From Candidatus Methanophagales archaeon (GTDB lineage Archaea > Halobacteriota > Syntropharchaeia > Alkanophagales > Methanospirareceae), in assembly GCA_003336485.1 (NCBI GenBank), contig QENH01000192.1, positions 1 to 50,163 on the forward strand: a DNA stretch of 50,163 bases, read 5' to 3'. Both the position numbers and the translations under genes were made by a program. Of the stretch, positions 15,258-50,163 are shown piece by piece (within the stretch, counting starts at the first letter, position 1; every line of letters begins with the position of its first letter). The notes beneath the pieces were generated by a model, which worked only from the letters and a program-made list of their open reading frames with translations, made no database searches and was not told the DNA's origin.

Positions 15258-15281
15258 ATTTATCGCCTCCTTTTAATCAAA

Positions 15282-26887: not shown

Positions 26888-26890
26888 TCT

Positions 26891-28168: not shown

Positions 28169-28196
28169 TTTATACCTGGTTTTTATGTTTTAGGTG

Positions 28197-28313
28197 CTAT
28201 GTTTTAGGTTTTTTTAGGGAATTGAAATCTTGTGTAACTTGATACACCCCTATCACGAACTCATAGCTCTTCTGCCACACCTTCAAATCCTCAAAACCTG
28301 TTATTTGCTCCAT
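28197..28313 (-). pseudogene. Truncated four-helix-bundle (S23/IVS-type) protein remnant
   Basis: A 38-codon frame, ATG 28311-28313 to TAG 28197-28199, begins MEQITGFEDLKVWQKSYEFV and continues VYQVTQDFN. The FEDLKVWQK-(6)-VY-x-T-x-DF pattern is the first helix and turn of the four-helix-bundle proteins encoded by 23S rRNA intervening sequences and elsewhere (about 115-125 residues). Only the first third remains; it ends in Lys-rich text from an A-run and a TAG. It sits between the D- and K-like genes of module I, so it is probably the scar of an insertion and deletion there. Confidence 0.65.
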
Positions 28314-28317
28314 CTCT

Positions 28318-28345
28318 CACACCTCACACTTCACACCTCACACTT
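28318..28345. repeat. Two exact tandem copies of a 14-bp unit
   Basis: The unit CACACCTCACACTT is repeated twice without a mismatch (28318-28331, 28332-28345). The second copy covers the last codons of the module I D-like gene (KCEV and the stop) and the first lies in the spacer, so a copy-number change would alter the gene end. Confidence 0.7.
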
Positions 28346-33915: not shown

Positions 33916-33958
33916 TTTCTTTGTTTTCCTTCCTTAATACGGTATGTTATAGAGCACA

Positions 33959-34007
33959 GTATTTATAGCTCCCATTTTCGGTAATACATATTACCTTGCA
34001 GGGTAAG
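33959..34007 (-). promoter_or_regulatory. Shared promoter/operator element, copy B
   Basis: Plus-strand order: GTATTTATA (TATA box), CCCATTTTC, GGTAATACATATTACC (33980-33995) and GGGTAAG (34001-34007). The core is an inverted repeat with 7-bp arms GGTAATA/TATTACC around CA, the best palindrome of the five copies, and a further GGTAA starts 22 bp after the first. The TATA box is about 45 nt before the ATG of SBP 8. It drives the importer and modules I and II. The remaining sequence to 34155 shows no gene. Confidence 0.78.
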
Positions 34008-34155
34008 TGTGATGGACAAACCACAGTAAAACACATTTGGGCTAATAAATGTTATTCTTACTGCTGCCATGCAACTCTTTTCGTATTTGAAGGTATGAAT
34101 TGTCAGGTGTCTGTATCCTAACCCCTAAAACACAAACAAATACCGCCATTCTCTT

Positions 34156-35760
34156 CTAATGCGTAATTGATCTGCCCACAAACTTTGCCGCTTCTTCTGC
34201 TTTTGTTACTGCGAAAGAAGCATCCAGTATTTTTACCGCTACTCCATATTTATAGACATCCAACGCATCGGTAAATGATGCATAGGCCATATTCACAAGA
34301 TTGCTATATTCATCCGTTATAGTTCCATTAAGCACCTCACGTAGCGCTAAAGTTCTGTTTAGTGACTTATAATGATCGCCTAAAAATGTTATTGTCTCTT
34401 TTACAACTTCTAGTGCCTCTGACGTAGCCAGACAATTAATCTTATTTATAGCCTTAGTTTTCACAGTATCGTCAATCGATCGGCTTGCAAATACAAGAGT
34501 ATAGAAATTTATGACTTTTTCCAGTCGCTGTGCCGAATCATTCAGGTAGAGAATCATAAATTCCGCAATTGCACCATATACCTCGATATCAATGTCCTCA
34601 GAACCGTGCATCATTTCTACTGCATTATATATTGCACGCAAGAGTTTTTCCAAGCTCTCGATAATACTTTCTGTTAGTAGATTTCTCGTGCTGGTATCAG
34701 ACGCTCCCGATTCATTAGGATTATGGGATTTGCATACGGAAGAGACATAGAATACTTCGTTTGCTAGTAGTCGGTATGTGTGTTCACTGCCCGGGCTTTC
34801 GGGATGTGGAGAGGATAACACGACTTTACCATGTCCATATTCTGCAGCTATTATAGCGGGTTTACCCGTAGAATTGGCGATAGCTTTTTTTGATGGTTTC
34901 AGACCCCTCACCCTGGTTAATTCTGGGTTCGTCAGTTGAATCTTTGGGCTTGTAGCAGAAATAGTAGCTAACACTGTTACATCGTCCCCCACTTCACTGC
35001 TGAATATTGGTCCACACCAATAGATCAACGCGATATTACCCGCGTATCCAAACATTACGGGATGCTCGGGCGTCGTTATAGCGTATATTACGGGTCCGCG
35101 AGCGTAAGCAGACAGGATATTACCGCTCTCTTTTTGTTCTAACCTCGCATCTACCAGTTCTAACCATGAACTAGGACCTGATTTGTGATAACCACTAACA
35201 GCCGCTACAGATCCGCCACAATGGCCTATATAGCCACCACCATTGTACACAAATTCAGTTACTTCTTTACAGCCCTCTTTACCTAAGTGAGTACAATACT
35301 CACCGCCACTACCCAGTAATAAGATATTGTAATCTCTTAATGCACCTTCAAGAATGTCTTCCGCGGTTACTATTCCTATATCAAAGCCCATATCATCTAA
35401 TACCTGAATAAACCATATAGCACCGCCAGTTGTGCCATTGCCATAATATACTGCTATCGTGGGTTTGACCATTTTACGTGCCACCACTACTAAACGGGAC
35501 TTATCCAACCCAGAATCTTGATTAACTGTAACACCCAACTCGTCTGCCATGTTCAACAAATAACGGACAGCGCTAAACGAATTAAAAGCAATTACAAAGT
35601 CGCCTCTTGTGTAGACTCGTTTCGCACCTCGTACCCGTTTTTGTAGCCACCATGCATCTACGCCCAGAGCAAGCATGCGGTTAACAACTTTTATGGCGTT
35701 TTGTGTGTATTCGGTACCCGAACAATTATTCAATGCTATTGCATAATAGGATTGTGTCAT
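34156..35760 (-). CDS. BPL_N / class I glutamine-amidotransferase-like protein with helical C-terminus
   Basis: 534 residues from ATG 35760 (GAGGG lies 5 nt before it; a GTG two codons earlier is the alternative). Residues about 100-340 resemble the BPL_N domain, a glutaminase-like fold seen in biotin-ligase N-termini: TIAVYYGNGTTGGAIWFIQ, YNILLLGSGGEYCTHLGKEG, the nucleophile-elbow-like GGGYIGHCGGSVAAVSGYH and the closing YGHGKVVLSSPHPESPG. The Cys of GHCGGS would be the nucleophile. The N-terminal 95 residues (LGVDAWWLQKRVRGAKRVYT) and the helical C-terminal 180 residues are of unknown type. No signal peptide is seen. It is the last gene of the cohesin/SBP unit but has its own AT-rich promoter-like sequence at about 35782-35798 and a terminator upstream. 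The role is unknown. Confidence 0.7.
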   Translation of the reverse strand: MTQSYYAIALNNCSGTEYTQNAIKVVNRMLALGVDAWWLQKRVRGAKRVYTRGDFVIAFNSFSAVRYLLNMADELGVTVNQDSGLDKSRLVVVARKMVKPTIAVYYGNGTTGGAIWFIQVLDDMGFDIGIVTAEDILEGALRDYNILLLGSGGEYCTHLGKEGCKEVTEFVYNGGGYIGHCGGSVAAVSGYHKSGPSSWLELVDARLEQKESGNILSAYARGPVIYAITTPEHPVMFGYAGNIALIYWCGPIFSSEVGDDVTVLATISATSPKIQLTNPELTRVRGLKPSKKAIANSTGKPAIIAAEYGHGKVVLSSPHPESPGSEHTYRLLANEVFYVSSVCKSHNPNESGASDTSTRNLLTESIIESLEKLLRAIYNAVEMMHGSEDIDIEVYGAIAEFMILYLNDSAQRLEKVINFYTLVFASRSIDDTVKTKAINKINCLATSEALEVVKETITFLGDHYKSLNRTLALREVLNGTITDEYSNLVNMAYASFTDALDVYKYGVAVKILDASFAVTKAEEAAKFVGRSITH

Positions 35761-35800
35761 GATCACCCTCTGCCGTTGAATATATCATAATAATACAAAT

Positions 35801-35848
35801 AAAAAAGGGAAAAAAAGAGACGTCTTTTGCTACTCGCTGTATGTCTCT
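35801..35848 (-). terminator. Hairpin plus T-run after the last SBP of the cohesin unit
   Basis: Directly after the TGA at 35849-35851, the minus strand has arms AGAGAC (35843-35848) and GTCTCT (35816-35821) around a 21-nt loop, then T7-CCC-T6. The T-run alone would be a good archaeal terminator. It separates the SBP run from the BPL_N-type gene. Confidence 0.5.
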
Positions 35849-37096
35849 TCAACTCGGTTCCGGATACACAAATACTCCGTGCTCATCTAGATCAAAGTCC
35901 AATCCCTGGAATCTAGTCAGATATTCTTGGTGGATTGCTTTCGGGTCTAAATCAGCGAAAATGTCAGGATGGAACCATTTTGCCAGGTATCCAATAGCGA
36001 TGAAATGTTTTCCAGCGGTGAGTTCTTTTATAATCACGTAAACTTCGTTATTCTTCACTGCGTCTACGTTCTCTAACTCAGGACGTCCCATCATTTCAGC
36101 CCTTACTTCTTCTAGCCCCTTGGTGTCGTCTACATCATAGCCATAGTCGCTGCGGTTATATGTCTGCTTAACGATTATTTCCGGGTCTCGCATTACTACC
36201 TCTTCCGGGTCTACGACGACATAACCAGAAAGGTCACTAAAGATGTAGTTCCCGCCCGCCATTTCGACAAATGTATCATACCCCGTGCCTTCTCCACCTA
36301 CCTTGTATGATCCATACAATCGTTCGAAATAGACTTTAGGTCTTTCATCTTCAGGTATTTTCGTGCCTTTATCTGCAACGGTAGCCATACAATCCTCGTA
36401 GAATCCAATAAACGTTTCTGCATCTTCCTCTTTATCAAAGATGTAGCCCAGCGTCTCTGCCTCCTCAATGTAATTTTCTGGCTTGAAACAGTCAAAACGA
36501 ACCACCGTGACACCCGCATCTTCTAGTTGTTCTTGAACCCAAGAATCCGTCATCACTGTTGCATATATAAATACCGCATCGGGATCAAGCTCTAATATCT
36601 TTTCGACGTCTGGAGACCGTGCAGAACCTATACTCGGGTAATCTTGGAACTCAGGGAAGTACATTTCCCTCTTGGGTACATCAGATGATACAGCGACAAT
36701 CTTTTCCTTTTCCACATTGAGAGATCGCATTACCTCTATAATATTACGATTGAGAATAGCTATTCTCTCCAGTGGCTTATCTATTGTGACCGTTCTGTCA
36801 AGAGTATCAACGACCGTAAGCTCCTCCTCCTTTCCCACGATGATCAACTTTATCTGTACAAAATCCAGCGGGTCTATTTTACCATCGCATTTCGCGTCCG
36901 CGAATTCCGTCTTGGGCTTCTCGCCGAAAAATATTAGCTTTACGTACGTTAAATCGCGCATATCTATCGTATCGTCTTCGTTTGCGTTACCGTAAACGCC
37001 TAAGACGAAATCGTCTTCTGCCACAACCACAGGTAAAGCCACTAAAAACAGCGAACACAGCACTACTCCTATTACCAACATTGTTTTTGTTTTCAT
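35849..37096 (-). CDS. Dockerin-bearing substrate-binding protein (SBP 9)
   Basis: ATG 37096 (MKTKTMLVIGVVLC, 415 residues) is chosen because GGAGGTG lies about 11 nt before it; the frame is open 11 codons further to a TTG. Signal peptide 1-26, dockerin 27-90 directly after it. Its second loop is changed to DAKCDGKIDPLD, with Cys for Tyr and Asp for Asn, unlike all other copies. The linker is TVVDTLDRTVTIDKPLERIA. The binding domain has RSPDVEKILELDPDAVFIYA and FVEMAGGNYIFSDLSGY. The C-terminus LDEHGVFVYPEPS is shared with SBP 10. Confidence 0.88.
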   Translation of the reverse strand: MKTKTMLVIGVVLCSLFLVALPVVVAEDDFVLGVYGNANEDDTIDMRDLTYVKLIFFGEKPKTEFADAKCDGKIDPLDFVQIKLIIVGKEEELTVVDTLDRTVTIDKPLERIAILNRNIIEVMRSLNVEKEKIVAVSSDVPKREMYFPEFQDYPSIGSARSPDVEKILELDPDAVFIYATVMTDSWVQEQLEDAGVTVVRFDCFKPENYIEEAETLGYIFDKEEDAETFIGFYEDCMATVADKGTKIPEDERPKVYFERLYGSYKVGGEGTGYDTFVEMAGGNYIFSDLSGYVVVDPEEVVMRDPEIIVKQTYNRSDYGYDVDDTKGLEEVRAEMMGRPELENVDAVKNNEVYVIIKELTAGKHFIAIGYLAKWFHPDIFADLDPKAIHQEYLTRFQGLDFDLDEHGVFVYPEPS

Positions 37097-37125
37097 TTTT
37101 TCTTTTTCACCTCCTATATTTTTTA

Positions 37126-38370
37126 TCAACTCTGTTCAGGATACACAAATACTCCGTGCTCATCTAGATCAAAGTCCAATCCCTGGAATCTAGCCAGATA
37201 TTCTTGATGGATTGCTTTTGGGTCTAAATCATCGAAAAGACCAGGATGGAACCATTTTGCTAAGTATGCTATACCTATGAAACAACTTGGCCCATTCAGC
37301 ACCGTTTGAGCGATTACATAAACATCGTTATTCTGCACTGCTGATACTAATTCTAACTCAGGGCGATCCATTAGTTCGCTCCTAGCATCTTTTAGCCCTG
37401 CCAAATCGTCTACAGCATATCCACTTTCATAGATGTTAAATTTGATTATGATCTCAGGATCACGTTTAATTACCTCTTCCGGGTCCACCGTGAAATAGCG
37501 CCCTAGGTCGCTAAGGGTATTGTTTCCACCTGCCATTTCTAGCTTATTGTGCCAGGAAGTGCCTTTACCGCAGGTCCTGTAAAGTTTCGTAGTTTCAAAG
37601 TAGATTTTTGGCCTCTCACCATCGGGAATCTCCTTTGTCCTCTCTTCAATTGAATCCACCACCCCCTTATAGAACTTCAAGAACTCATCTGCTTCTCCTT
37701 TTTTACCTATGATGTATCCAAGCGTCTCTACTTCTTCCACATAACTTTTTGGATCGTAAAAATCGAAACAAATTACCCTGAGGCCAACATCTTCGAGCTT
37801 TTGAACCGCGTCGTAATAGGTGGACGAGGCATATGCAAAGACAACGTCAGGATTTAGGCTTAATATCTTTTCGATGTCCGGAGTCTTTGCACTTCCTACA
37901 TCGGGATGATCCTGGAATTCAGGATAGAATACTTCATCTTTACTGAGCACCCAGTGATGTACACCGACTATTTTATCCGTTTCTAGCTTTAGAGAGCGTG
38001 CTGTTTCAATGTATGTTAGACTAAGAGAGACCATCCTCTCGAGCGGTTTTTTCACCGTTACTATTCTATCCGCGGAATCGACCAGCGTAAGCTCCTTCTC
38101 CTTGCCCACGATAACTAACTTTATCTGTACAAAATCCAACGGGTTTATCTCGCCATCGTATTTCGCGTCTGCTAACTCGGTCTCCTGCTTCTCGCCGAAG
38201 AAGATCAGCTTTACGTACGTTAAATCGCGCATATCGATCGTATCGTCTTCATTTGCGTTGCCGTAAACGCCTAAGATGTAATCGTCTTCTGCCGCAGCAA
38301 TCGCAGGTAAAGCCACTAAAAACAGCGAACACAGCACTACACCTAGTGCCAACATTGTTTTTGTTTTCAT
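37126..38370 (-). CDS. Dockerin-bearing substrate-binding protein (SBP 10)
   Basis: Start at ATG 38370 (MKTKTMLALGVVLC, 414 residues): the longer open frame runs back inside SBP 11 and does not give a signal peptide. Signal peptide 1-27, dockerin 28-91 (EDDYILGVYGN), linker TLVDSADRIVTVKKPLERMV. The binding domain includes KTPDIEKILSLNPDVVFAYA and LEMAGGNNTLSDLGRYF. It shares its N-terminus and the HGVFVYPE end with SBP 9, and the two are adjacent, so they are a recent duplicate pair. Confidence 0.88.
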   Translation of the reverse strand: MKTKTMLALGVVLCSLFLVALPAIAAAEDDYILGVYGNANEDDTIDMRDLTYVKLIFFGEKQETELADAKYDGEINPLDFVQIKLVIVGKEKELTLVDSADRIVTVKKPLERMVSLSLTYIETARSLKLETDKIVGVHHWVLSKDEVFYPEFQDHPDVGSAKTPDIEKILSLNPDVVFAYASSTYYDAVQKLEDVGLRVICFDFYDPKSYVEEVETLGYIIGKKGEADEFLKFYKGVVDSIEERTKEIPDGERPKIYFETTKLYRTCGKGTSWHNKLEMAGGNNTLSDLGRYFTVDPEEVIKRDPEIIIKFNIYESGYAVDDLAGLKDARSELMDRPELELVSAVQNNDVYVIAQTVLNGPSCFIGIAYLAKWFHPGLFDDLDPKAIHQEYLARFQGLDFDLDEHGVFVYPEQS

Positions 38371-38396
38371 TTTTTCTTTTTCACTACCCCTATTTT

Positions 38397-39665
38397 TTAT
38401 CCACTCGGTTCCGGATACACAAATGTGCCATGTTCCTCCAACTTGTAGTCCAAGCCCTGGAATTCTGTTAGATATTCTTGATGGATTGCCTTTGGATCTA
38501 AGTCCTCGAAGAGATCGGGATGGAACCATTTTGCTAAGTACCCAATACCCATAAAGTGCTGTGCTCCACCGTAGAGGTCATTACTTATCACATAAACCCG
38601 TCCTTGCTTCACTGCGGTGACCTCTGCCAGTTCTGGACGACTCATGATTTCGTCCCTTAAACGGGTCAGTTCGGTTATATCATCGGATTCATATCCGCTA
38701 TTTCCTCGAGCCACAATGACTATAATATCGGGATTGCGTTTTATCACCTCTTCGGGATCCACCGTTGGATAGCCCGAAAGATCGCTGAAGATATTGGTTC
38801 CTCCGGCTAGCGCGATTTTTTCATGATAGCCTGCCCCTTCGCCACAGGTCTTGTACGGATTCCACTCAAAGTATACCGTTGGTTTATCTTCTTCCGAAAG
38901 TTCTTCTACTCGCTCTTTTACTGTATTCATTACGCCAGTATAGAAATCAAGGAACTCATCTGCTTCGTTCCGTTTTCCAAGTATATAGCCCATCTTTTGT
39001 ATTTCATCTACGTGATTCGAGGGTCTATAACCATCAATCCGCAGAACGGTGATCGTAGGATCCGCTTCGTTTAGCGTATTCTGGATCTTTTCGTAGCTAG
39101 AGGAACTGCCTACCCTTGCATATATCCAGACAGTATCCGGATGCAACTCCAATATCGCCTCATAATCCGGGGATGAGACTGATCCAAGACCCTGGCACTC
39201 GCTGAACTCCGGGAAGTATATGTTATCCTCTTTGATATATGTGCCAACCCCTACTATTTTATCTGACTCTAACTTAAGTGAACGCATCGGTTCGAGAATA
39301 GGACTCAAAAGTACAATCAGTCTATCAAGCGGTTTTTTCACCGTTACCATTCTATCCGCGGAATCGACCAGCGTAAGCTCATTCTCCTTACCCACGATAA
39401 CTAACTTTATCTGTACAAAATCCAACGGGTTTATCTCGCCATCGTATTTCGCGTCTGCTAACTCGGTCTCCTGCATCTCGCCGAAGAAGATCAGCTTTAC
39501 GTACGTTAGGTCTCGCATATCGATCGTATCGTCTTCGTTTGCGTTGCCGTAAACGCCTAAGACGTAATCGTCTTCTGCCGCAACCACAGGTAAAGCTACT
39601 AAAAACAGCAAACACAGCACTACCGCTATTTCCAACAGTGCTACCACTTTTGGTTTTGTTTTCAT
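38397..39665 (-). CDS. Dockerin-bearing substrate-binding protein (SBP 11)
   Basis: 422 residues: signal peptide to about 30 (VALPVVAAEDD), dockerin 31-94 with Met for Arg/Lys after the first repeat (GEMQETEL), linker TLVDSADRMVTVKKPLDRLI. The binding domain has SSPDYEAILELHPDTVWIYA, KIALAGGTNIFSDLSGY and the ligand-side NPYKTCGEGAGYH with one Cys. The end is LEEHGTFVYPEPSG. It follows SBP 12 by 25 nt and is part of the six-SBP run behind the cohesin genes. Confidence 0.88.
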   Translation of the reverse strand: MKTKPKVVALLEIAVVLCLLFLVALPVVAAEDDYVLGVYGNANEDDTIDMRDLTYVKLIFFGEMQETELADAKYDGEINPLDFVQIKLVIVGKENELTLVDSADRMVTVKKPLDRLIVLLSPILEPMRSLKLESDKIVGVGTYIKEDNIYFPEFSECQGLGSVSSPDYEAILELHPDTVWIYARVGSSSSYEKIQNTLNEADPTITVLRIDGYRPSNHVDEIQKMGYILGKRNEADEFLDFYTGVMNTVKERVEELSEEDKPTVYFEWNPYKTCGEGAGYHEKIALAGGTNIFSDLSGYPTVDPEEVIKRNPDIIVIVARGNSGYESDDITELTRLRDEIMSRPELAEVTAVKQGRVYVISNDLYGGAQHFMGIGYLAKWFHPDLFEDLDPKAIHQEYLTEFQGLDYKLEEHGTFVYPEPSG

Positions 39666-39690
39666 CTTTTCTTTTCACTACCTAAATTTT

Positions 39691-40998
39691 TTATTTGCCA
39701 TCCGGATGCTTCTCAGGATGATACACGAATACACCGTGCTCGTCCAAGTCGTAGTCTATGCGCTGGAATCTTGTCAGCCATTCCTGATGAATTGCATTTG
39801 GATTTAGGTCCTCAAATAGCTCGGGATGGAACCACTTTGCAAGATATGGTAATCCGAGGAACCATCCCCTCCACACCATTGAATCACCATGCAATAAATA
39901 GACTTCTCCATCTTCCACTGCGTCTACGTTCTCAAATACGGGGAGAGTCATGAACTCTGCTCTGAACGCTTTTGCTTCTGATAGGTCATCTACGTCATAG
40001 CCAAAAGTATGGGCTGGCCACCCGGATTGCACGAATATGATAGAAGGATTCTCCGCGATCACCCACTCAGGATCCACTGTGATCCAACCTCCGGGAAGAT
40101 TTCCGGCGATATTGATGCCGCCTGCCATTTTGATCATCTGATTTGCACCTTGATTAGCATTACCGTAAGTTTTCCATTCTTCGGATCGTCTATAGGTACC
40201 AAATACTCGTGGCTTATCGCCCTCGGAAAGCCCTTCTGTTCGATCTTTGATTATATCTACGTAGCCTTCATACCAATCAATGTACTTTTCAGCCTCCGCC
40301 CCCTTATTAAGGATATATGCAAGCTTTTCCACTGTTTCTGTGTATGTAAGTGGACTGGTGCAGTATGCGCCAATAACAGGTATGCCTGTTCCCTCAAGCA
40401 GGTCTGCAAGCTTTTCCGTTGCACTACCTGATGTAATCATAAGGACGAGATCTGGCTCAAGCGCGCATATACTCTCAGCGTCTGGTGCCCATGTGGAGCC
40501 AATGGATGGGAGCTGACTTAACTCCGGGAACAATAACTCTGCCGACTCTATGGTGGAGCTCACACCGACCACTTTGTCCTCTGCTCCAATTGCTTTGATA
40601 ACTCCCGCTGTCGCGTGATATGTGACGACCATCCTCTCCACTGGCATGCTTACCGTCACGATTCTATCGACTTCGTCCACAATCGTAAGCTCCGTCTCCT
40701 TACCCACGATAACTAACTTTATCTGTACAAAATCCAACGGGTTTATCTCGCCATCGTATTTCGCATCTGCCAACTCCGTCTCCGGCTTTTCGCCAAAGAA
40801 AATCAGTTTTACGTACGTCAGGTCTCGCATATCAATCGTATCGTCTTCGTTTGCGTTGCCGTAAATGCCTAGGACGAAATCGTCTTCTGTCGCAATCGCA
40901 GGTAAAGCCACTAAAAGCACCGAACACAGCGCAATTGCTATTACCACAAACCTTTTCGATAGAAAATGTTTACCAAAAGAACCTTTTTTTGTTTCCAT
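39691..40998 (-). CDS. Dockerin-bearing substrate-binding protein (SBP 12)
   Basis: 435 residues: signal peptide to about 37 (METKKGSFGKHFLSKRFVVI then LCSVLLVALPAIAT), dockerin 38-101, linker TIVDEVDRIVTVSMPVERMV. The binding domain has STWAPDAESICALEPDLVLM, KTYGNANQGANQMIKMAGG and INIAGNLPGGWITVDPEWVI. The DPEWVI strand is shared with SBP 1 and SBP 14 and marks a subgroup. The His/Lys-rich tail HGVFVYHPEKHPDGK resembles that of SBP 6. Only 15 nt separate it from SBP 13. Confidence 0.88.
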   Translation of the reverse strand: METKKGSFGKHFLSKRFVVIAIALCSVLLVALPAIATEDDFVLGIYGNANEDDTIDMRDLTYVKLIFFGEKPETELADAKYDGEINPLDFVQIKLVIVGKETELTIVDEVDRIVTVSMPVERMVVTYHATAGVIKAIGAEDKVVGVSSTIESAELLFPELSQLPSIGSTWAPDAESICALEPDLVLMITSGSATEKLADLLEGTGIPVIGAYCTSPLTYTETVEKLAYILNKGAEAEKYIDWYEGYVDIIKDRTEGLSEGDKPRVFGTYRRSEEWKTYGNANQGANQMIKMAGGINIAGNLPGGWITVDPEWVIAENPSIIFVQSGWPAHTFGYDVDDLSEAKAFRAEFMTLPVFENVDAVEDGEVYLLHGDSMVWRGWFLGLPYLAKWFHPELFEDLNPNAIHQEWLTRFQRIDYDLDEHGVFVYHPEKHPDGK

Positions 40999-41013
40999 TT
41001 TTTACTCATCTAT

Positions 41014-42306
41014 TCATGACACAGGATAAGTCGGGTAAGCATAGACACCATTAAACTCCATATCAAGAAACCTCTGGAACCATTCCTCGTGAATAGCTAC
41101 AGGGTCTAGATCCTCAAACAACTCGGGATGTATCCACTTCGCAACGTAGGAATGGAAAATACTTGGATGCACCGTTTTTGAGTCAAGACTGATTAGATAT
41201 ACACCACCATTCTTAACCGCATCGATGTGATCCCAGCCAGGATGGCCCATAATACTGTTTCTCAACTCGTCCATCGGTCCTGTATCGGTCACACCGTATC
41301 CACAAGGAAGCATATTTACACTCATCTCACGAAGAATTACCTGCGGGTTCCTCACAATTATTGCCTCGGGATCCACCTCTGCATAGTAATCAATCTCCTC
41401 AAAGATATTGGTACCACCGCAAAAGACAATGGTATTATGACCTACACCGCCAGTACCATAAGTGGTATAATCTCCGCCATGAGTCTCATAATATACTCGG
41501 GGCTTCTGATCTTCCTTCAAGTCCTCTACCCGCTCTTCTATAAGGCCAAGGTATTGCTGCTCGAAGTTGATAAGCTCTTCCGCCTTTTCTTGCTTCCCCA
41601 ACATCCAGCCACAGTTTCTTATTTCTCTGGAATACTTTTCCGGGCGGTAGAAATCCATCTGGACTACCGGAATGCCAGCAGCGTTTAACTTCTCCACGAA
41701 GTCCGGCCAAGTACGGAACGAATAAAGAAGTACGATGTCCGGATTCAGCTCCATAATCGCTTCTGTATCCCACTTGGAGTATCTTCCAACTGAAGGTATC
41801 TCCGCTACGAAGCTCTCAAATTCCGCTTTCTTCTTTGTTGAATCGTCAACACCAACGATCCCATCCTGCTCGCCAAAGGCCCAAAGCGTTTTTGCTGCGT
41901 AACTACTCAGAATAACGGTCTTATTTATCGGTGTATTGATCGTCACAGGTTTTTCTGTGATATCAGGCGATTTACCAAGATACTGAAGCAGCGTAAGTTC
42001 CTTCTCCTTACCCACAATAACTAACTTTATCTGTACAAAATCCAGCGGGTTTATCTCGCCATCGTATTTCGCGTCTGCCAACTCGGTCTCGGGCTTTTCG
42101 CCGAAGAAGATCAGCTTTACGTACGTTAAATCACGCATATCGATCGTATCGTCTTCGTTTGCGTTGCCGTAAATGCCTAGGACGAAATCGTCTTCTGCTG
42201 CAATCGCAGGTAAAGCCACTAAAAGCACCGAACACAGCGCAATTGCTATTACCACAAACCTTTTCAATAGATAAGGTTTACCAAAAGAACTTTTTTTTGT
42301 TTCCAT
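41014..42306 (-). CDS. Dockerin-bearing substrate-binding protein (SBP 13)
   Basis: 430 residues: signal peptide to about 37, dockerin 38-101, then the LLQYLGKSPDITEKPVTI linker. This is the only copy of that linker type in this unit. The binding domain has TVILSSYAAKTLWAFGEQDG, KLNAAGIPVVQMDFYRPEKY and VFCGGTNIFEEIDYY. Its N-terminus is nearly identical to SBP 12, while its binding domain is closer to SBP 4 and 5, so signal-dockerin and binding parts have different relatives. This looks like recombination or gene conversion. Confidence 0.88.
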   Translation of the reverse strand: METKKSSFGKPYLLKRFVVIAIALCSVLLVALPAIAAEDDFVLGIYGNANEDDTIDMRDLTYVKLIFFGEKPETELADAKYDGEINPLDFVQIKLVIVGKEKELTLLQYLGKSPDITEKPVTINTPINKTVILSSYAAKTLWAFGEQDGIVGVDDSTKKKAEFESFVAEIPSVGRYSKWDTEAIMELNPDIVLLYSFRTWPDFVEKLNAAGIPVVQMDFYRPEKYSREIRNCGWMLGKQEKAEELINFEQQYLGLIEERVEDLKEDQKPRVYYETHGGDYTTYGTGGVGHNTIVFCGGTNIFEEIDYYAEVDPEAIIVRNPQVILREMSVNMLPCGYGVTDTGPMDELRNSIMGHPGWDHIDAVKNGGVYLISLDSKTVHPSIFHSYVAKWIHPELFEDLDPVAIHEEWFQRFLDMEFNGVYAYPTYPVS

Positions 42307-42332
42307 CTTTTCTTTTCAATTACCTCCTATCC

Positions 42333-43655
42333 CTAATTGTCAGGAATCCCAGCTAAGTCACCGCCACATTCTATGGGCGGATACGCAAATACTCCGTGCT
42401 CGTCCAGATCATAGTCCAACCCCTGAAAATCAGTTAAGTATTCCTGATGGATCGCCTCGGGATCCAAGTCCTCGAAGAGTTCCGGATGGAACCATTTCGC
42501 AAGGTATGCGAGATGCACAAAATGTGTGAGGTGCCCATGAGTCAGTTCTGTTGAGACCACATAAACCTGCTCGTTCTCCACAGCACGGATGTGGTCAAAT
42601 CCTGAACGATTCATGACACTTTCTCTTACCGCTTTCATTTCTGTTGGATCGTCCACTTCGTACCCTTGTGCGGCTTTGGAATCTACCTTAGCTATAATAT
42701 CCGGATTCTCCACTATCACCCATTCCGGATCTAGGATAGGATAATTCGAATAGGTCCCAGATCCAAGTTTCTCCGCTGCGATATTTATACCTCCTGCTGT
42801 TACAATAAGCAAGTGGTCTGCCGTATTTTCGTTAACCGTTAGGAAGTCTGAATATTCGTAGTATACGCGAGGTTTATCCACCTCTGATAGCTTCTCTGTT
42901 TTATCCGCAATTGAATCCACACAACCTTCATAGAACTCAATGAACTCTTCTGCTTCTTCCACCGTATCAAATATGTAACCCGCCTTTAGCATCTCTTCTG
43001 TCATTGTTTCTTGATTATAGCAGTCCAAAGCGACAACAGGAATTCCTGCGGGCGTAAGTTTTTCTACATTCTCTGTGCACCTAAAAGAACCCACAATCAC
43101 TATATCCGGATTGAGTTCAATCATCTCTTCGTAGTCCGGTGCGTTCCACTTTCCAACTGATGGTAACGTACTCAAGTAAGGGAAGAATATTTCCGCTTCT
43201 TTTACATGTTCTGGTACTCCAACCACCCGATCTTGCACATTAAGCACTCTAATTGCTTCTGCACTCCCGGTAGCTGCAAATAGCACTACCCTCTTGATGG
43301 GTTCCTCCACCGTTACGATTCTGTCAGCAGAATCCACGAGTGTGAGCTCCGTCTCCTTACCCACGATAATCAGCTTTATCTGCACAAAATCCAGCGGGTT
43401 TATTTCGCCATCGTATTTCGCATCTGCTAACTTCGTCTCCGGCTTTTCGTCGAAGAAAATCAGCTTTACGTACGTCAAGTCCCGCATGTCAATCGTATTG
43501 TCTTCATTTGCGTTGCCGTATATGCCTAAGACGAAATCGTCTTCTGCCGCAATCGCAGGTAAAACTACTAAAAACAGCAAAGACAGCACAATTGCTATTC
43601 CCACAAACCTTTTCGATAGAAAAGGTTTACCCAAAGAACTTTTTTCTGTATTCAT
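42333..43655 (-). CDS. Dockerin-bearing substrate-binding protein (SBP 14)
   Basis: 440 residues: signal peptide to about 37 (MNTEKSSLGKPFLSKRFVGI), dockerin 38-101 with Asp for Gly at the end of the first repeat (IFFDEKPET) and Asn for Asp in the first loop (NEDNTIDM), linker TLVDSADRIVTVEEPIKRVV. The binding domain has KWNAPDYEEMIELNPDIVIV and TVNENTADHLLIVTAGGINI. The C-terminus goes beyond the usual end (FAYPPIECGGDLAGIPDN) and has one Cys. It is the first SBP after the surface-anchor gene, 94 nt downstream, across a long GA-rich leader. Confidence 0.88.
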   Translation of the reverse strand: MNTEKSSLGKPFLSKRFVGIAIVLSLLFLVVLPAIAAEDDFVLGIYGNANEDNTIDMRDLTYVKLIFFDEKPETKLADAKYDGEINPLDFVQIKLIIVGKETELTLVDSADRIVTVEEPIKRVVLFAATGSAEAIRVLNVQDRVVGVPEHVKEAEIFFPYLSTLPSVGKWNAPDYEEMIELNPDIVIVGSFRCTENVEKLTPAGIPVVALDCYNQETMTEEMLKAGYIFDTVEEAEEFIEFYEGCVDSIADKTEKLSEVDKPRVYYEYSDFLTVNENTADHLLIVTAGGINIAAEKLGSGTYSNYPILDPEWVIVENPDIIAKVDSKAAQGYEVDDPTEMKAVRESVMNRSGFDHIRAVENEQVYVVSTELTHGHLTHFVHLAYLAKWFHPELFEDLDPEAIHQEYLTDFQGLDYDLDEHGVFAYPPIECGGDLAGIPDN

Positions 43656-43681: not shown

Positions 43682-43751
43682 CTTCTCTCTTCTCTTCTCT
43701 TCTCTTCTCTCATCTCACCTCTCCCTTCTCCCTTCTCCCTTCTCCCTTCTC
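43682..43751. repeat. 70-bp pyrimidine-rich simple repeat
   Basis: TCTCT units followed by several CCCTTCT units. In the mRNA this is a GAGAA/AGAAGGG tract that fills the leader between the anchor gene and SBP 14 and offers many SD-like sites. Such tracts change length easily, which could tune translation of SBP 14. Confidence 0.6.
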
Positions 43752-44802
43752 AGCGCCTCCTCCGTAGAGCATACGCAATCGCAGAAATCGCCGCTATTGC
43801 GAATATCGCATCGAATCCGGGCGTTTTTGACGTTGGTGTTGGTGCGGTCTCCTTAGATTTAGGTGTAGACGTTGGCTTTGCAGTTGGCGTTGACTTTACT
43901 GTCTGACTAGAACTTGGCGTTGCTTTTGGTGTTGGTGTCTGTGTTACGCCTGATGTCAGCGTAGGCGTTGGTGTCTGTGACCCTTCAGACGCTTCTGCTG
44001 ATTCCGCCGCCACGGACCATATCCAGATGTGCATACCTGATAAGTCCGTTTCTGTGTTCGTTACAATTGCCGATACGTTCCATGTGCCAGCAACTGCACT
44101 CTTCGTGTACTCTGCTTTCGTTACGCCTTCATCCTGTTGCACCTCCGTGTCATTTATTTGCCAGCTTATGTCTACTTCTTGGTCTACGGAGATCTCAAAG
44201 GTTATTGATTCGCCTTCTGTACTGTTTATCGCCTCTTCAGTAGGTACCCATGCGGTTATGGTCGGAAGTTGTTCTTCTTCGCTCTCCTCCTCTTCTACGA
44301 CATCAACTACATTTATCTCAGTGCCACGCAACTTTCCTACCGCTATAAACTCCGCTGCATTATCCACCAACTCCACATTGGAAATCTCTAACTCGCTTCT
44401 GTCTCTTTTCCCTCCTACTACTTCAAAACTAACCTTCGCTAAATCCCCTGAGCCACTTACGCCCGTAATCCCCGACATGGCAGCAATTACCGTTATGTGC
44501 CCATCATCGTCATCATCAGGAAACATCTCTGCGGGTATTGCCGTTCCATCCACATTACCTTCTGTAACACTAATGACGTCCACTACACTCGAATCAAAGG
44601 ACAAATCGAATTTCGCTCCGTTCAAATCATCTATCCCTTCTAGAGCTATGCTCACCTCAAAAGTACAGCCCTCCGCTACTTCCTCCGGTGCATTCACTCT
44701 TAGTTCCACCCCCCGCGCTGCTATTACAGGAGTAAATATAAGCGCCAGCAATAGAGTTGCTATTACTAATCCATAAACCCTACCATTACCTCTTTTGTTC
44801 AT
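43750..44802 (-). CDS. Surface-anchored single-cohesin protein with archaeal sorting tail
   Basis: 350 residues: signal peptide 1-29, one cohesin module about 31-166 (ELRVNAPEEVAEGCTFEVSI; KFDLSFDSSVVDVISVTEGN; SGITGVSGSGDLAKVSFEVV), an acidic linker (EEEESEEEQ), an Ig/PKD-like domain about 180-265, a Thr/Pro/Ser-rich stalk 275-326 and a tail of PGF (328-330), a hydrophobic helix and RRRR. The tail matches the PGF-CTERM signal handled by archaeosortase A, so the protein should be fixed to the envelope with the cohesin held outside. In cellulosome terms it is the anchoring protein for dockerin partners. It follows the four-cohesin gene and precedes six dockerin-SBP genes. The dockerin it binds is not provable from sequence, but those encoded here are the obvious candidates. 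Confidence 0.85.
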   Translation of the reverse strand: MNKRGNGRVYGLVIATLLLALIFTPVIAARGVELRVNAPEEVAEGCTFEVSIALEGIDDLNGAKFDLSFDSSVVDVISVTEGNVDGTAIPAEMFPDDDDDGHITVIAAMSGITGVSGSGDLAKVSFEVVGGKRDRSELEISNVELVDNAAEFIAVGKLRGTEINVVDVVEEEESEEEQLPTITAWVPTEEAINSTEGESITFEISVDQEVDISWQINDTEVQQDEGVTKAEYTKSAVAGTWNVSAIVTNTETDLSGMHIWIWSVAAESAEASEGSQTPTPTLTSGVTQTPTPKATPSSSQTVKSTPTAKPTSTPKSKETAPTPTSKTPGFDAIFAIAAISAIAYALRRRR

Positions 44803-44826
44803 ATCTCTTCCTCACCCCATTATATC

Positions 44827-44869
44827 TAAAAAAAAATAAATGGCAGAGCTTACTTTCCGAAAGCTCTGC
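44827..44869 (-). terminator. Hairpin plus T-run after the four-cohesin gene
   Basis: A perfect 9-bp stem (GCAGAGCTT at 44843-44851, AAGCTCTGC at 44861-44869) with a 9-nt loop, followed on the minus strand by a T-run interrupted by one A (44829-44838). It lies 50 nt after the four-cohesin stop and just before the anchor gene. It could reduce read-through or stabilise the 3' end, giving more scaffold than anchor mRNA. Confidence 0.65.
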
Positions 44870-44918
44870 ATTCTTGCATTTTCACCCCATTCTTTGTCTT
44901 GATTATGTATGGTGAAGA

Positions 44919-46667
44919 CTAGCTCAAGGTAACCTCGTCAGCAACCCACTCAGCAGGTATCTCATCCGCTTCGTTATTCGCAAGCATTCCATTGGATAGC
45001 TCTAATACACTTTTGTCCCCGCTTTTCCCTACTACATCGAAGCTAATAGTCGCTAAGTTACCGGAACCGTTTACGCCTGTAACACCAGAAAGCTCGCACA
45101 TTACCTTGATTGTATCCGAATCAATGAACTCCCACGTGGTTATAGGTACTGCTGTCCCGTCCAAACTACCCGCTGTAACATCTGTCACGTTCACCACACT
45201 CGAATCGAACGACAAATCGAAGAGTGCCATGTTGAAATTGGCTACATCTTCCAACACGTCTATCGCTGCTGTGAAAGACCCACCAACATCTACTAATTCC
45301 GGTGCGTTTACCGCAACCTTTACCGGACCCACGATAACCTCGTCATTAACCAACGTCGTAGGTATCTCTTCCGCTTTGTTATTCGCGAGCATAGCATCGG
45401 ATATTTCTAACACGCTTCTATCGCCATCTATCCCTAATACTGCAAAGTTAATAGTCGCTAAGTTACCGGAACCGTTTACACCTGTAACACCAGAAAGCTC
45501 GCACATTATCTTTATTGTGCCCGAATCAACGAGCTCCCATGAGGTTATAGGTACTGCTGTCCCGTCCAAACTACCCGCTGTAACATCGGTCACGTTCACC
45601 ACACTCGAATCGAACGACAAATCGAAGAGTGCCATGTTGAAATTGGCTACATCTTCCACTACATCTATTGTTGCTGTGAAAGACCCACCAGCATCTACTA
45701 ACTCCGAAGCGTTTACCGCAACCTTTACCGGACCCACGATAACCGCGACATTAACCAACGTCGTAGGTATCTCTCTCGCTTTGTTATTAGCAAGCATAGC
45801 ATCGGATATTTCTAACACGCTTCTATCGCCGCCTATCCCTAATACTGCGAAGTTAATAGTCGCTAAGTTACCGGAACCGTTCACACCTGTAACACCCGAA
45901 AGCTCGCTCATCACCTTGATTGTGTTCGAATCAATTAAATCCCATGAGGCTATAGGTACTGCTGTCCCGTCCAAGCTACCCTCGGTAACATTGGTCACTT
46001 TCACTACACTTGAATCAAACGACAAATTGAAGACGGCCATGTTGAAATTGGCTACATCGTCCAACACGTCTATCGTTGCTGTGAAAGACCCACCAGCATC
46101 TACTAACTCCGGTGCGTTTACTTCCACCCCTACTGGACCAACAATAACCTCGTCGTCAACCCACACTGCAAGGATCTCTTTCGATTCTATGTCCTTCAGA
46201 AGTCCATCGGATACGCTTAATACGCTTCGATCGCCACCTAGCCCTAATACGGCAAAGCTAATCGTCACTAAGTTACCGGAACCGTTTACACCTGCAACCC
46301 CCGAAACGTCAAGAAACACCCTTATTGTGTTACTATCTACGAATTCCCAGTTGTCCACCTGTATCGTTTCGCTGTCCAAGCTGCCATTTGCAACTCCTGT
46401 CACGTTCACCACGCTCGAATCGAATGACAGGTCGAACTGCCCTGAGTTGAAACCAGTAATGCTATCTATAGCTATGCTAGCATTAAAAGTACCCAGTACG
46501 TATTCGGGCGCATTTGCAGTGACATTTACAGTAGCTCCGGTATCCTGTGCAGCCAAACCAAGAATCACCGAAGAGCAGACAATCACTGCCAGAATGCAAA
46601 TGACTGCGCTTCTCGCAAAGATTTTTTTCCCACCAAACTTTTTTTTATACTTCCCGTTTTCTCTCAT
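44919..46667 (-). CDS. Secreted scaffold protein with four cohesin modules
   Basis: 582 residues: basic N-terminus and signal peptide to about 40 (SAVICILAVIVCSSVILGLA), then four cohesin repeats of about 134 residues (roughly 47-178, 179-313, 314-448, 449-582). Each has the F-x-LSFDSSVV-x-VT strand pair, a SGV-GVNGSGNL-TI-F strand and GDRSVL-x-x-SD/SN. Repeats 2 to 4 are nearly the same, and repeat 1 is more divergent. There is no catalytic domain, carbohydrate-binding module, dockerin or C-terminal membrane helix, so it is a pure scaffoldin, either free or held by an uncleaved N-terminal helix. First gene after promoter copy A. Four modules could hold up to four dockerin-SBPs. Cohesins outside cellulosomes are known in archaea such as Archaeoglobus. 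Confidence 0.87.
   Translation of the reverse strand: MRENGKYKKKFGGKKIFARSAVICILAVIVCSSVILGLAAQDTGATVNVTANAPEYVLGTFNASIAIDSITGFNSGQFDLSFDSSVVNVTGVANGSLDSETIQVDNWEFVDSNTIRVFLDVSGVAGVNGSGNLVTISFAVLGLGGDRSVLSVSDGLLKDIESKEILAVWVDDEVIVGPVGVEVNAPELVDAGGSFTATIDVLDDVANFNMAVFNLSFDSSVVKVTNVTEGSLDGTAVPIASWDLIDSNTIKVMSELSGVTGVNGSGNLATINFAVLGIGGDRSVLEISDAMLANNKAREIPTTLVNVAVIVGPVKVAVNASELVDAGGSFTATIDVVEDVANFNMALFDLSFDSSVVNVTDVTAGSLDGTAVPITSWELVDSGTIKIMCELSGVTGVNGSGNLATINFAVLGIDGDRSVLEISDAMLANNKAEEIPTTLVNDEVIVGPVKVAVNAPELVDVGGSFTAAIDVLEDVANFNMALFDLSFDSSVVNVTDVTAGSLDGTAVPITTWEFIDSDTIKVMCELSGVTGVNGSGNLATISFDVVGKSGDKSVLELSNGMLANNEADEIPAEWVADEVTLS
44922..46529 (-). repeat. Tandem cohesin-coding repeat, about 402 bp x 4
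   Basis: Approximate units 46134-46529, 45729-46133, 45324-45728 and 44922-45323. The last three share long identical DNA stretches, for example around the GTTAACGGTTCCGG-type segment that encodes GVNGSGN. Recent duplication or gene conversion is likely, and copy number may vary between strains or be collapsed in assemblies. Confidence 0.75.
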
Positions 46668-46939: not shown

Positions 46940-49900
46940 CTATTTTCTCCGCCGTTTATATCCTAATCCACTACCAATCAGTACCAAAACCACAATCACT
47001 GCTATAATCCCCATCAGCGGGGCACCAGATACAGAGAATGCCGATGATTCCACAAGATTCTCCTCTTTCATTACTTTACCTCTCTTCTCCGATGTTACCT
47101 CAGGCGGTTTCTTTAGCTCTTCGCCTAGTTCACTCACACCTGTTGTTTCTGTCGCATTAATGACCCCTTCACCAGGTTCTGTTTCTGTTTCTGTACTCTT
47201 ATGAGACCAGCTCCCGCCACCACCACCTGAATAATATGTACTCTGTTCCGTAGATTGTTCCGTAGCCGACGCAGAAACTATGCCCTGCTGGTAATCCTGA
47301 AACAGCGGATTGCCACAGGTATGATGACAGCATGTAACACCATGTTCTTCGACCGATTTCTGATATAGCTCTGCCAGAGTGGTCTTTACGTCTTCTGATG
47401 GATCCCAATAGCCTTTCCTTATCGCTTCGAGCATCCTCGCGGTGATTGATTGCTGAGCCCAGGGATTGTTCTCATCGAACCAATCCTGTAGCCCCAGGTC
47501 ATATTTGTCCTGTACATAGATCGAATACATCTCGTTCCACATCTCTTCCGTTATGACATCCGGGCATGAGACATCCCAGCCCCAAAGGTTCGCCATGATC
47601 TCTGTTATCGCTCCGGCACCGGCATAATCATGTCCCATCATGCCCTCGATCCAATAGGGATTAAAGTACATCGAACGCAAATCCCTCAAAATGACATGAT
47701 TCAACGACTCTAACTTTGCGCCATTTTGATCCTTGAGGTTGCTTATGTACATATCAGGCGCGTTACCAGTAATCTCGCGAACCGCCATGCTCAAGCCACC
47801 AAAGAACTCAAAGGTATGATCTATACCAAGCACGCTGTGGGAATGCGATGCCCACCCGAACAGTGCTACCTCTGTTCCGTCGAGATTCTGCTTGAATAGG
47901 TCTACGTGTTGCTCACCCCAGATCGTATCGCCATACACATTGCCCATATTCCTGATATAGAGGTCTGCAAGCGTGCTTTCGTCCTCCCACGTACCACTGC
48001 CTTCAATGGCTGCAATAAACCCGCCAACGCCCCATACTCCGTCCGGCGGCCCGAAGATACGTGCCAATGAGAGCTCTCGCGCCTGCGATTCGGTATAGTT
48101 GTGCTTAATCAGCCAGTTATATGTTGATTGTGTACTCTCATACACATAGTTCCTGTGGTAGGGCGAATCATCCGATTCCGATGCTATGCGTACCGCTTTA
48201 TTGATTAACTCGATCTGATGCGGCCAATTCTCGCGATATATTCCGCTCATGGTGACAACGACATCTATTCTTGGTCTACCCAAGTCCTCTATCGGTATGA
48301 GACGAACATCAATGACGTTCTTGTTTCTATCCCATACCGGCTCCACACCCAGCAGATAGAAGAGTTCCGATTCAAGCACGCCCAAATCCTTCATTGTATT
48401 AAATGAGAACATAACGAAGCCGATCTTCTTTTGATAGCTTGCATCGGTACCGTCATGATATTTAGAGAGCAATTGATCCATCAGATCCTTACCAACTTCC
48501 CATGCAGGTTCTGTTGGCACGATATTCGGATCAAAGCCATAGAAATTCCGCCCGGTCGGCAACACATCCGGATTTCTGATCGGGTCGTTACTCGGTCCAG
48601 GAGGGATGTATTGCCCTTCGAGTGCGTCTAACGTTCTTGGTATTTCGATCATGCATTCACGAAGATTCTCGGCGTACACTACCGCGAGCTTCAAGAAGTT
48701 TGTAAGTGGCGTCGCTTCTGGTATCGCATCATCTGAGGTATCATGTCTGCTTATAATAACCGTTGCGTTAGTCATTGGCGTTACACCATAACGGCCCTGC
48801 GCGAGTACTACACCCGAGATCGAGGAAGTCCCGGCTATGCTATCCTGATCATCAGTCATATTCAATATATCGTTTGCAGTTGTCTCATCGCCGAAAGTCA
48901 GCCAGACCTCGATTTCCTTTAGGTACTCTCTATCGCCCACACTGGTATTTATAGCGCCTATGAACCAGCAGCTCATTCCCGATATATACGTTAGCACGGA
49001 TATAGTGTAATTCCCGGCAGCTAGGTTGGAGAACGTGTAATTGCCAGCCTCATCTGTGGTTGTTTTTGCCAATGAGGTCATAAACTCTGATGCGGACTCG
49101 GTAACATTTTCTGATCTATCCAACACCTTCTCTTGTGCCTCTTTCGGTGATGTCCCATTGATTATTACTGCCTCAAGAAGCATTCTCGTCTGGTTCACGG
49201 AGATGTTCATACTTTCGATATAATCCCGGAATTCATATCCGAGCAGTGATTTGGTCATATCAACAATGCTATCGTTAGAGAGCGGTTTTCCCATAATATG
49301 CAAGCCGTAGGGCATGTACTCTCTCTTTATCTCCAAGAGATAATCATGCATCTCATCAAGGAACTCATCAAAGGCAGTCTCATTGCCCGCAGCAATATCG
49401 TCCAAATCAACGCCCAGATCCTGATCGAGATTCAGATCACGGCACATCTCTAATATCTGCTCTTTATATTTGTTCCTGAGCGTGCCATTCTCCTCCCGTT
49501 CGTACAGCGGTATCGTCTGTTCGAGATTTGATAGATTACCGTATAGTCCTGCTGCAACGATCACCGGGGTTAGATGATCGATCATGACTGCATTGCCCCG
49601 TCTCTTCGCTATAACGCCTTCACCGATCCCTTCCACTTCGTAGTGGTACACTACCGGCATGTCCCGGATCAAAATCGCGGGCCAGCAATCATCTACCGAT
49701 AACCCAACACCCTTTCCCGGCAGCCATTCCTGAGTTCCATGCCTGCCGACAGACACGATTGCATCTACACCATAGTCATTATTCAGCCAGTAATAGAATG
49801 CGATATATTGATGCGTGGGAGGCACTGATTTATCGTGATACAGAGCAGTCATATTCTGCGTTCCTGCACGCGATGGCTGTGGCGCGATCAGAATGTTACC

Positions 49901-50131
49901 GAGCGAAATCGTTGGTATCATGAGGTACTTACCCGATTCATTTTCATAGACCATGATCTCACCGGGTGGCGGACCCCAGCGCTCGATTACCCCAATCCGC
50001 TTCTGCTCCGGAAGTTCATTGAACAAAGCTAAATATTCATCTTCCGGTACAAGCGCTACGTCACAGTTCTCTGCTACGTGTTTTATCTGATCTGGCACCC
50101 AGATCCCGATATTTCTACCCTGTTTCAGCAC
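46940..50131 (-). CDS. cobN: CobN-like (class I) chelatase large subunit, extracytoplasmic and membrane-anchored; 5' part missing
   Basis: 1063 residues are in frame from a GTG at 50131; the true N-terminus (roughly 450 residues in CobN) lies beyond the window. Conserved CobN/BchH text includes VGRHGTQEWLPGKG (about 128-141), DPIRNPDVLPTGRNFYGFDP (about 516-535), FGPPDGVWGVGGF, EFFGGLSMAV and HDYAGAGAITEIMANLWGWD. About residues 355-465 form an insertion with a carboxypeptidase-regulatory-like beta-sandwich (TTDEAGNYTFSNLAAGNYTI; TPMTNATVII). After the family end (CCHHTCGNPLFQDY) come a Ser/Thr/Gly-rich stalk, one membrane helix (about 1040-1058) and YKRRRK. The tail implies that the chelatase domain faces outward. 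No CobS/CobT or ChlI/D ATPase is nearby. The frame is closed upstream by TGA at 50150-50152 although similarity seems to go on in another frame. Insertion of cobalt, nickel or another metal is uncertain; ligand binding or metal removal is possible. Confidence 0.85.
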   Translation of the reverse strand: MLKQGRNIGIWVPDQIKHVAENCDVALVPEDEYLALFNELPEQKRIGVIERWGPPPGEIMVYENESGKYLMIPTISLGNILIAPQPSRAGTQNMTALYHDKSVPPTHQYIAFYYWLNNDYGVDAIVSVGRHGTQEWLPGKGVGLSVDDCWPAILIRDMPVVYHYEVEGIGEGVIAKRRGNAVMIDHLTPVIVAAGLYGNLSNLEQTIPLYEREENGTLRNKYKEQILEMCRDLNLDQDLGVDLDDIAAGNETAFDEFLDEMHDYLLEIKREYMPYGLHIMGKPLSNDSIVDMTKSLLGYEFRDYIESMNISVNQTRMLLEAVIINGTSPKEAQEKVLDRSENVTESASEFMTSLAKTTTDEAGNYTFSNLAAGNYTISVLTYISGMSCWFIGAINTSVGDREYLKEIEVWLTFGDETTANDILNMTDDQDSIAGTSSISGVVLAQGRYGVTPMTNATVIISRHDTSDDAIPEATPLTNFLKLAVVYAENLRECMIEIPRTLDALEGQYIPPGPSNDPIRNPDVLPTGRNFYGFDPNIVPTEPAWEVGKDLMDQLLSKYHDGTDASYQKKIGFVMFSFNTMKDLGVLESELFYLLGVEPVWDRNKNVIDVRLIPIEDLGRPRIDVVVTMSGIYRENWPHQIELINKAVRIASESDDSPYHRNYVYESTQSTYNWLIKHNYTESQARELSLARIFGPPDGVWGVGGFIAAIEGSGTWEDESTLADLYIRNMGNVYGDTIWGEQHVDLFKQNLDGTEVALFGWASHSHSVLGIDHTFEFFGGLSMAVREITGNAPDMYISNLKDQNGAKLESLNHVILRDLRSMYFNPYWIEGMMGHDYAGAGAITEIMANLWGWDVSCPDVITEEMWNEMYSIYVQDKYDLGLQDWFDENNPWAQQSITARMLEAIRKGYWDPSEDVKTTLAELYQKSVEEHGVTCCHHTCGNPLFQDYQQGIVSASATEQSTEQSTYYSGGGGGSWSHKSTETETEPGEGVINATETTGVSELGEELKKPPEVTSEKRGKVMKEENLVESSAFSVSGAPLMGIIAVIVVLVLIGSGLGYKRRRK

Positions 50132-50163
50132 TAAATCGTCAAGTAGGGCTCATAGTCAACCTT

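Follow-up and report, generated by a model that had tools for sequence, protein, structure and literature searches.

A candidate surface metallo-tetrapyrrole dechelatase of the BtuS/HmuS branch in an ANME-1 archaeon

What might a CobN-like chelatase be doing on the outside of an archaeal cell? The question is raised by a gene at the end of a 50,163-nucleotide stretch of Candidatus Methanophagales DNA (assembly GCA_003336485.1, contig QENH01000192.1), hereafter the window, which is one whole contig (C10 of genome G000). Here, a reverse-strand open reading frame (ORF; 46940–50131, 1063 codons) matches the Pfam family CobN-Mg_chel (PF02514) at E=8e-255. A first-pass annotation, made from the sequence alone, had called its product a CobN-like chelatase that sits outside the cell and may bind, present or demetallate tetrapyrroles next to an array of substrate-binding proteins (SBPs). 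The answer that we favor, with a probability of about 0.6, is that it is a surface metallo-tetrapyrrole dechelatase of class I, belonging to the exported BtuS/HmuS branch of the CobN family and working with an ExbB/DUF2149 complex. That a methane-oxidizing archaeon bears on its outside a relative of the bacterial enzyme taking iron out of heme, along with homologues of that enzyme's two membrane partners, suggests that metals are removed from tetrapyrroles at the surface of archaeal cells.

The ORF is real, and its gene runs past the contig end: the PF02514 match covers profile positions 325–1088 and, since it starts so far into the profile, about 300 N-terminal positions are missing from the ORF. 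A genome-wide comparison gives three PF02514 matches: contig C26 has a complete CobN of the cytoplasmic type, the window gene is the second (here with profile positions 311–1088), and the 3.2-kb contig C170 holds a match to positions 2–267. In the relative G028, the homologous gene is uninterrupted in a single frame (protein P0001, 1896 aa; 93% identity), with C170 matching its nucleotides 1–2375 at 92–93% and C10 matching from 2482 onward at 94%. Both alignments reach the contig ends, save for a 26-base tip of C10 (homology extends to window position 50137), and by the same comparison about 80 bp are unsequenced between the two contigs. Because they align consecutively along the unbroken G028 gene, C170 and C10 are, on this comparison, a single gene of roughly 2000 codons in which the GTG at 50131 is internal; C170 also carries one additional 378-bp stretch relative to the G028 gene.

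The N-terminus on C170 begins MMEKNSRRLVVLFILVLFVVQIFAPFVVAQA, which by eye reads as a signal peptide; the N-terminal sequence MMEKNSRRLVVLFILVLFVVQIFAPFVVAQAQS is followed by several CarboxypepD_reg-like beta-sandwich repeats, and the protein further comprises a CobN head/neck and body. By a crude hydrophobicity score, a signal peptide and a C-terminal anchor are present in nearly all complete relatives among about 100 and neither is present in the cytoplasmic ANME-1 CobN. N-glycosylated surface proteins are expected to be enriched in Asn-x-Ser/Thr sites (sequons), and the part of the protein encoded in the window has 17 of them as against 6.8±2.2 in shuffled sequences, while the N-terminal half has 26 against 8.4±2.6, i.e., 2.5–3 times the shuffled expectation. 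Cytoplasmic CobN homologues fall below expectation (1–3 sequons versus 2.9–4.6 expected), as does an exported bacterial relative from an anammox organism (3 versus 5.7); since neither shows the enrichment, it tracks archaeal export. Thus, the window protein is almost certainly exported and membrane-anchored, with its core outside the cell. The topology given in the first-pass annotation is borne out on each of its grounds: the stalk, the single C-terminal helix and the YKRRRK tail are present as claimed, sequons are indeed frequent, and the recovered upstream sequence starts with a signal peptide and has no further helices that would place the core inside.

The same annotation was right in assigning the protein to the CobN-type chelatases but compared it with cytoplasmic CobN alone, overlooking the exported BtuS/HmuS branch; as that branch was already known, a surface CobN is less unprecedented than it first appeared. 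Against sequences from the Protein Data Bank (PDB), the relative P0001 scores 489 bits with HmuS, 436 with CobN and 435 with ChlH, and the C-terminal body separates them further (324 bits for HmuS versus 233 for CobN and 211 for ChlH). In a Foldseek search with a partial model of mean pLDDT 66.5, HmuS (9d26; E=2.4e-47) came ahead of CobN (7c6o; 8.8e-39). With the motif columns left out, the exported proteins, including HmuS, form one clade (SH-aLRT 97; 97–99 over two trees) separate from the CobN of Mycobacterium tuberculosis (Mtb), haloarchaeal CobN, the genome's own cytoplasmic CobN and ChlH. Named relatives assign the window to Methanophagales (ANME-1), and further ones belong to Methanosarcina, Methanolobus, Methanococcoides, Methanoculleus, Methanofollis, Methanothrix, ANME-2, ethane oxidisers and anammox Planctomycetes. 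Within the window's own family, matches at E<=1e-20 occur in 35 of 51 genomes, counting cytoplasmic copies. The window protein is a member of the exported CobN branch, not a cobalt chelatase, and not an HmuS in the strict sense of Nath et al. 2025, which implies NADH-dependent heme demetallation.

The studied member of this branch is HmuS of Bacteroides (B. thetaiotaomicron; PDB 9d26/9p4s; hmuYRSTUV operon), which has been characterized (PMC12583661, PMC13227078) and removes iron from heme (PMC12583661). Like the window protein, it is an exported, membrane-anchored, six-domain class I chelatase. The 2025 HmuS paper remarks on the large number of archaeal homologues, whose use it calls unclear, and on the lack of complete hmu operons in those species. 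PMC6460266 cites an earlier proposal (Rodionov 2003) that BtuS is a third type of CobN, serving the salvage of metalloporphyrins, and PMC10846266 reports that two BtuS homologues of Methanosarcina barkeri change with iron source, suggesting iron reallocation from heme. These proteins, together with BtuS1/BtuS2 of Bacteroides fragilis, are exported CobN-like proteins as is the window protein; the available portions of the two papers note archaeal homologues in a proteome study and do not describe archaeal topology, active-site classes or the partner module. Our literature searches returned no paper describing an exported CobN in ANME-1.

In HmuS, His538 and His1209 act with carboxylate partners, and turnover is lost in His538Ala (PMC12583661). 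Equivalents of His538, Asp1208, His1209 and Glu1212 can be found both in the window protein and in its clade, with Glu577 also kept in the clade. The HmuS motifs around His538 (HG) and around His1209/Glu1212 (LSLDHxxEFMGG) are represented in the window by GRHGTQEW and LGIDHTFEFFGG; in the latter the catalytic letters are identical and three non-catalytic positions (S, L, M) differ. These demetallation residues are lacking in part from cytoplasmic CobN and from most archaeal relatives, in which the second site is DDxFQ, as in Mtb CobN. The suggestion that the protein might bind, present or demetallate tetrapyrroles fits with HmuS as the closest structure and with the retained residues. Cytoplasmic CobN (Mtb 7c6o and the C26 copy) shares the fold and the His538-type HG motif but differs in the motif at the second metal site (Mtb, DDYFQ; C26 copy, CCYYF), in lacking signal peptide and anchor, and in having AAA+ subunit partners. 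ChlH/BchH magnesium chelatase (4zhj) shares the fold, whereas it is a cytoplasmic or plastid enzyme of the chlorophyll pathway without DHxxEFxGG or a membrane anchor.

Proteins with the HmuS-type site (DHxxE) form a clade with support of 99–100, made up of ANME-1, ANME-2c, Methanolobus and Methanococcoides, and are also set apart by their length in domain IV: from the His motif to LPTGRN there are 395–608 residues in all but L082, as against ~220–305 in nearly all other relatives (the exception being L152) and ~420 in HmuS, whose methionine-rich insertion sits in this domain (PMC12583661). The window insert (aa ~345–475) is predicted by AlphaFold to hold a beta-sandwich at 354–463 (pLDDT about 73–87), with Pfam matches below the cut-offs; the carboxypeptidase-regulatory-like domain noticed earlier is real. 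At the active-site loop (aa 126–189), confidence in the same model is low. Before the C-terminal helix, HmuS and the window protein have in common Cx4CxN and KGxVMK motifs. The former lies in CCHHTCGN, of which Cys934, Cys935, His937, Thr938, Cys939 and Asn941 are invariant in an alignment (A2) of 22 exported archaeal and anammox proteins; it is partly retained in HmuS (CSGFVCDN), with none seen in the CobN or ChlH alignments, and might possibly be a site of metal hand-off. A third group of relatives has lost both metal sites (...PMVAAYFGG, no HG) and often stands in tandem with an intact copy (L036:6852-11477, L037:12056-16612, L101:6764-11350, L104:5241-9818, L148:5390-9688); these paralogues retain export, anchor and Cys motif and, with the intact copies, make up a recurrent pair of active and pseudo-enzyme. 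Separately, a CobN in G044 (L030:390-3314) has a DHYFEFFGG site, no detected anchor and a position outside the exported clade.

If the protein acts outside the cell, what might power it? In its own genome, contig C46 ends with DUF2162, ExbB-like and DUF2149 genes, which apparently stand directly upstream of the chelatase gene. The SBP array, beside which the first-pass annotation had set the protein, is particular to this genome; the neighbors that stay constant across related loci are not SBPs but ExbB-like and DUF2149 genes, mostly joined by DUF2162. Next to the chelatase, many archaeal loci have the trio and anammox loci have the pair, and synteny of chelatase and partners extends over methanogens, ANME, anammox bacteria, Bacteroides, Prevotella and Aureibacter. 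In Runella, Trichlorobacter and Azospirillum, an exported CobN is likewise accompanied by the pair or the trio, with Trichlorobacter having a separate TonB/ExbB/ExbD set adjacent as well. The archaeal ExbB-like profile matches Bacteroidota HmuU at 4e-34 to 1e-44, as against only 2e-4 for canonical ExbB, and the DUF2149 profile matches HmuV at 3e-36 to 6e-39; the window system thus has the HmuU and HmuV partners in common with HmuS. To our knowledge, archaea have no TonB-dependent outer membrane, and therefore the ExbB-like/DUF2149 pair most likely serves the chelatase. A more tentative extension is that the pair might be a membrane-potential motor dedicated to exported CobN-type dechelatases of archaea and bacteria, not a TonB device, replacing the ATP-driven ChlI/D; if true, extracellular metal removal from tetrapyrroles would be powered across the membrane. 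Additional, more divergent DUF2149 copies, up to five per genome, occur in ANME-1 genomes such as G034, G033 and G032, many of them on contigs that yielded no surface CobN.

The new elements are an ANME-1 surface protein with an HmuS-type site, in which a beta-sandwich replaces the Met-rich insert, and the preservation of an HmuU/HmuV core in archaea. Methanogens, ANME and anammox bacteria carry an HmuS-HmuU-HmuV core in one neighborhood, and the archaea among them lack an outer membrane. HmuU and HmuV therefore probably serve HmuS itself and not a receptor of the TonB-dependent kind, which would correct the present hmu model in a way that is open to testing. Members of the DHxxE clade include culturable methanogens, so that demetallation of tetrapyrroles on the surface of an archaeon is accessible to experiment. 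In the mechanism that we propose, a metallo-tetrapyrrole, whether heme or one containing cobalt or nickel, would enter the central cleft, be held between the two histidines, be protonated and lose its metal, as proposed for HmuS. The released metal might be passed on, perhaps via CCHHTC, to a transporter of the FeoB or CbiM type, both of which are encoded in the genome. The ExbB-like protein, DUF2149 and the C-terminal helix would form a membrane complex, through which the membrane potential could conceivably provide the drive that cytoplasmic CobN takes from its ChlI/D ATPase, and the N-terminal repeats might lift the head at the S-layer or dock it there.

A number of observations weigh against this dechelatase reading or set the protein apart from HmuS. 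Unlike HmuS, the window protein has no Met or His at the places aligned with the head/neck heme ligands Met79 and His254, has only ~4 Met in the 131 residues of the stretch where the Met-rich insertion would lie, bears N-terminal beta-sandwich repeats and falls in a separate clade of the tree. The HmuS-like site of the DHxxE clade is probably convergent and not inherited from HmuS, because both half-protein trees nest the clade among archaeal DDxFQ (CobN-type) proteins; the trees favor convergence, and approximately unbiased (AU) tests do not reject a joint DHxxE-HmuS clade (p=0.46 and 0.18). The hmuYRSTUV operon is incomplete: U and V have homologues, DUF2162 takes the place of T, and neither Y nor R was seen next to the gene; nor is there an outer membrane. 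HmuT is a DUF2162 protein in Trichlorobacter, and Bacteroidota HmuT is not detectably so. Searches of the PDB returned no ExbD for the DUF2149 profile and MotA alone, weakly, for the ExbB-like profile; the ExbD-like character of DUF2149 would come down to motif resemblance (a membrane Asp in NLFDxAMxFAV). The order C46-C170-C10 is derived from G028 and not from the assembly: by eye, the 165-bp DUF2149-chelatase spacer of G028 is here found in two pieces, one at the end of C46 and one at the start of C170, which unrelated sequence separates. Finally, the literature searches yielded no activity, ligand or localization data for any archaeal member, and in related ANME-1 loci the surface CobN lies among cobalamin genes and cobalt-transport genes, not heme genes. 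At the C46/C170 breaks (L049:1-110, L004:2780-3171), additional sequence parts DUF2149 from the chelatase gene, unlike in G028.

That cobalamin context brings up the strongest alternative, which we consider unlikely: a chelatase that scavenges cobalt or nickel, taking the metal from metallo-tetrapyrroles (or using a tetrapyrrole as metallophore) to feed CbiMQO-type transport and cobamide/F430 synthesis instead of releasing heme iron. Most sampled ANME-1 loci have the surface CobN in cbi clusters, often with CbiM/CbiQ, and it was comparative genomics of B12 that first led to the proposal of the BtuS family (Rodionov 2003, as cited by PMC6460266). Yet no cbi gene stands beside the window gene within the 50 kb, and the HmuS dyad has been linked to heme by experiment. 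We also know of no enzyme that removes cobalt from a corrin ring, which counts against such scavenging.

Distinctly less probable is a non-catalytic receptor that binds and presents heme or a corrinoid to the SBP/BtuCD-type transporter encoded downstream. The 14 Peripla_BP_2 proteins with a BtuC-like FecCD permease and ATPase would suit this, and since the tandem paralogues persist without the catalytic His, a non-catalytic role does exist in the family; nevertheless, the window protein retains the complete catalytic set, and SBP adjacency is not conserved in related loci. An ordinary cytoplasmic cobaltochelatase with a misread signal peptide and anchor, as PF02514 membership and the NCBIfam label of the whole branch ("cobaltochelatase subunit CobN") might suggest, is rejected by topology (including the sequon enrichment), partners (no AAA+ partner beside the gene) and tree, the genome having a separate full cytoplasmic CobN beside a ChlI/D-like gene on C26, where the suggested search for ChlI/D found it. 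The features on which the preferred dechelatase reading draws are collected in Table 1.

Table 1. Positions of the chelatase gene parts and of the motifs and domains of its product (window coordinates unless a contig is named)
Feature	Position	Strand	Basis
C-terminal part of exported CobN/HmuS-like protein (about 1065 of roughly 2000 aa)	46940..50137	(-)	Pfam match and alignment to G028 gene
N-terminal part of same gene	contig C170, L004:3-2753	minus	alignment to G028 gene
Contig tip, 26 bases unalignable to homologous gene (assembly tip)	50138..50163	(-)	comparison with G028
His131, aligned with HmuS His-538 (HGTQEWLPGK motif)	49739..49741	(-)	alignment
Inserted beta-sandwich (CarboxypepD_reg/SdrD_B-like), domain IV	48707..49099	(-)	below-cut-off Pfam and model
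DHTFE: Asp771, His772, Glu775, aligned with HmuS Asp-1208, His-1209, Glu-1212	47807..47821	(-)	alignment
CCHHTCGN, membrane-proximal Cys/His motif directly N-terminal to stalk	47309..47332	(-)	alignment A2
Ser/Thr/Gly/Glu-rich disordered stalk (aa ~946-1034)	47030..47296	(-)	sequence and structure model
RGKVMKEE juxtamembrane motif; HmuS counterpart KGVVMKKE	47060..47083	(-)	alignment
C-terminal membrane helix (aa 1037-1062) and cytoplasmic tail YKRRRK	46943..47029	(-)	sequence and model

Downstream in the window lie two cohesin proteins, the Peripla_BP_2 proteins with the permease and an ABC ATPase and, besides methyltransferases, several nitrogenase-like D/K/H sets. None of the other loci showed this arrangement; cobalamin and cobalt-transport genes are more usual there. 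Only one of the annotated related loci has an SBP match, and in another set of loci the sole such match is beside a cytoplasmic CobN; an obligate partnership with the SBP array was thus rejected as a general rule, its adjacency not being conserved. The nitrogenase-like sets and methyltransferases occupy 1073–10285 and 21458–29833; for the NifH-like proteins among them only a generic "nitrogenase reductase-like" model passed, none of the tested D/K proteins reaches an equivalog cut-off, and NCBIfam does not assign these neighbors to a tetrapyrrole reductase. The 14 SBPs (11135–21037 and 32641–43655) are grouped around a single FecCD/ATPase pair. One SBP with a weak dockerin match and the two cohesin-domain surface proteins (32641–33915 and 43750–46667) suggest a cohesin-dockerin assembly at the cell surface.

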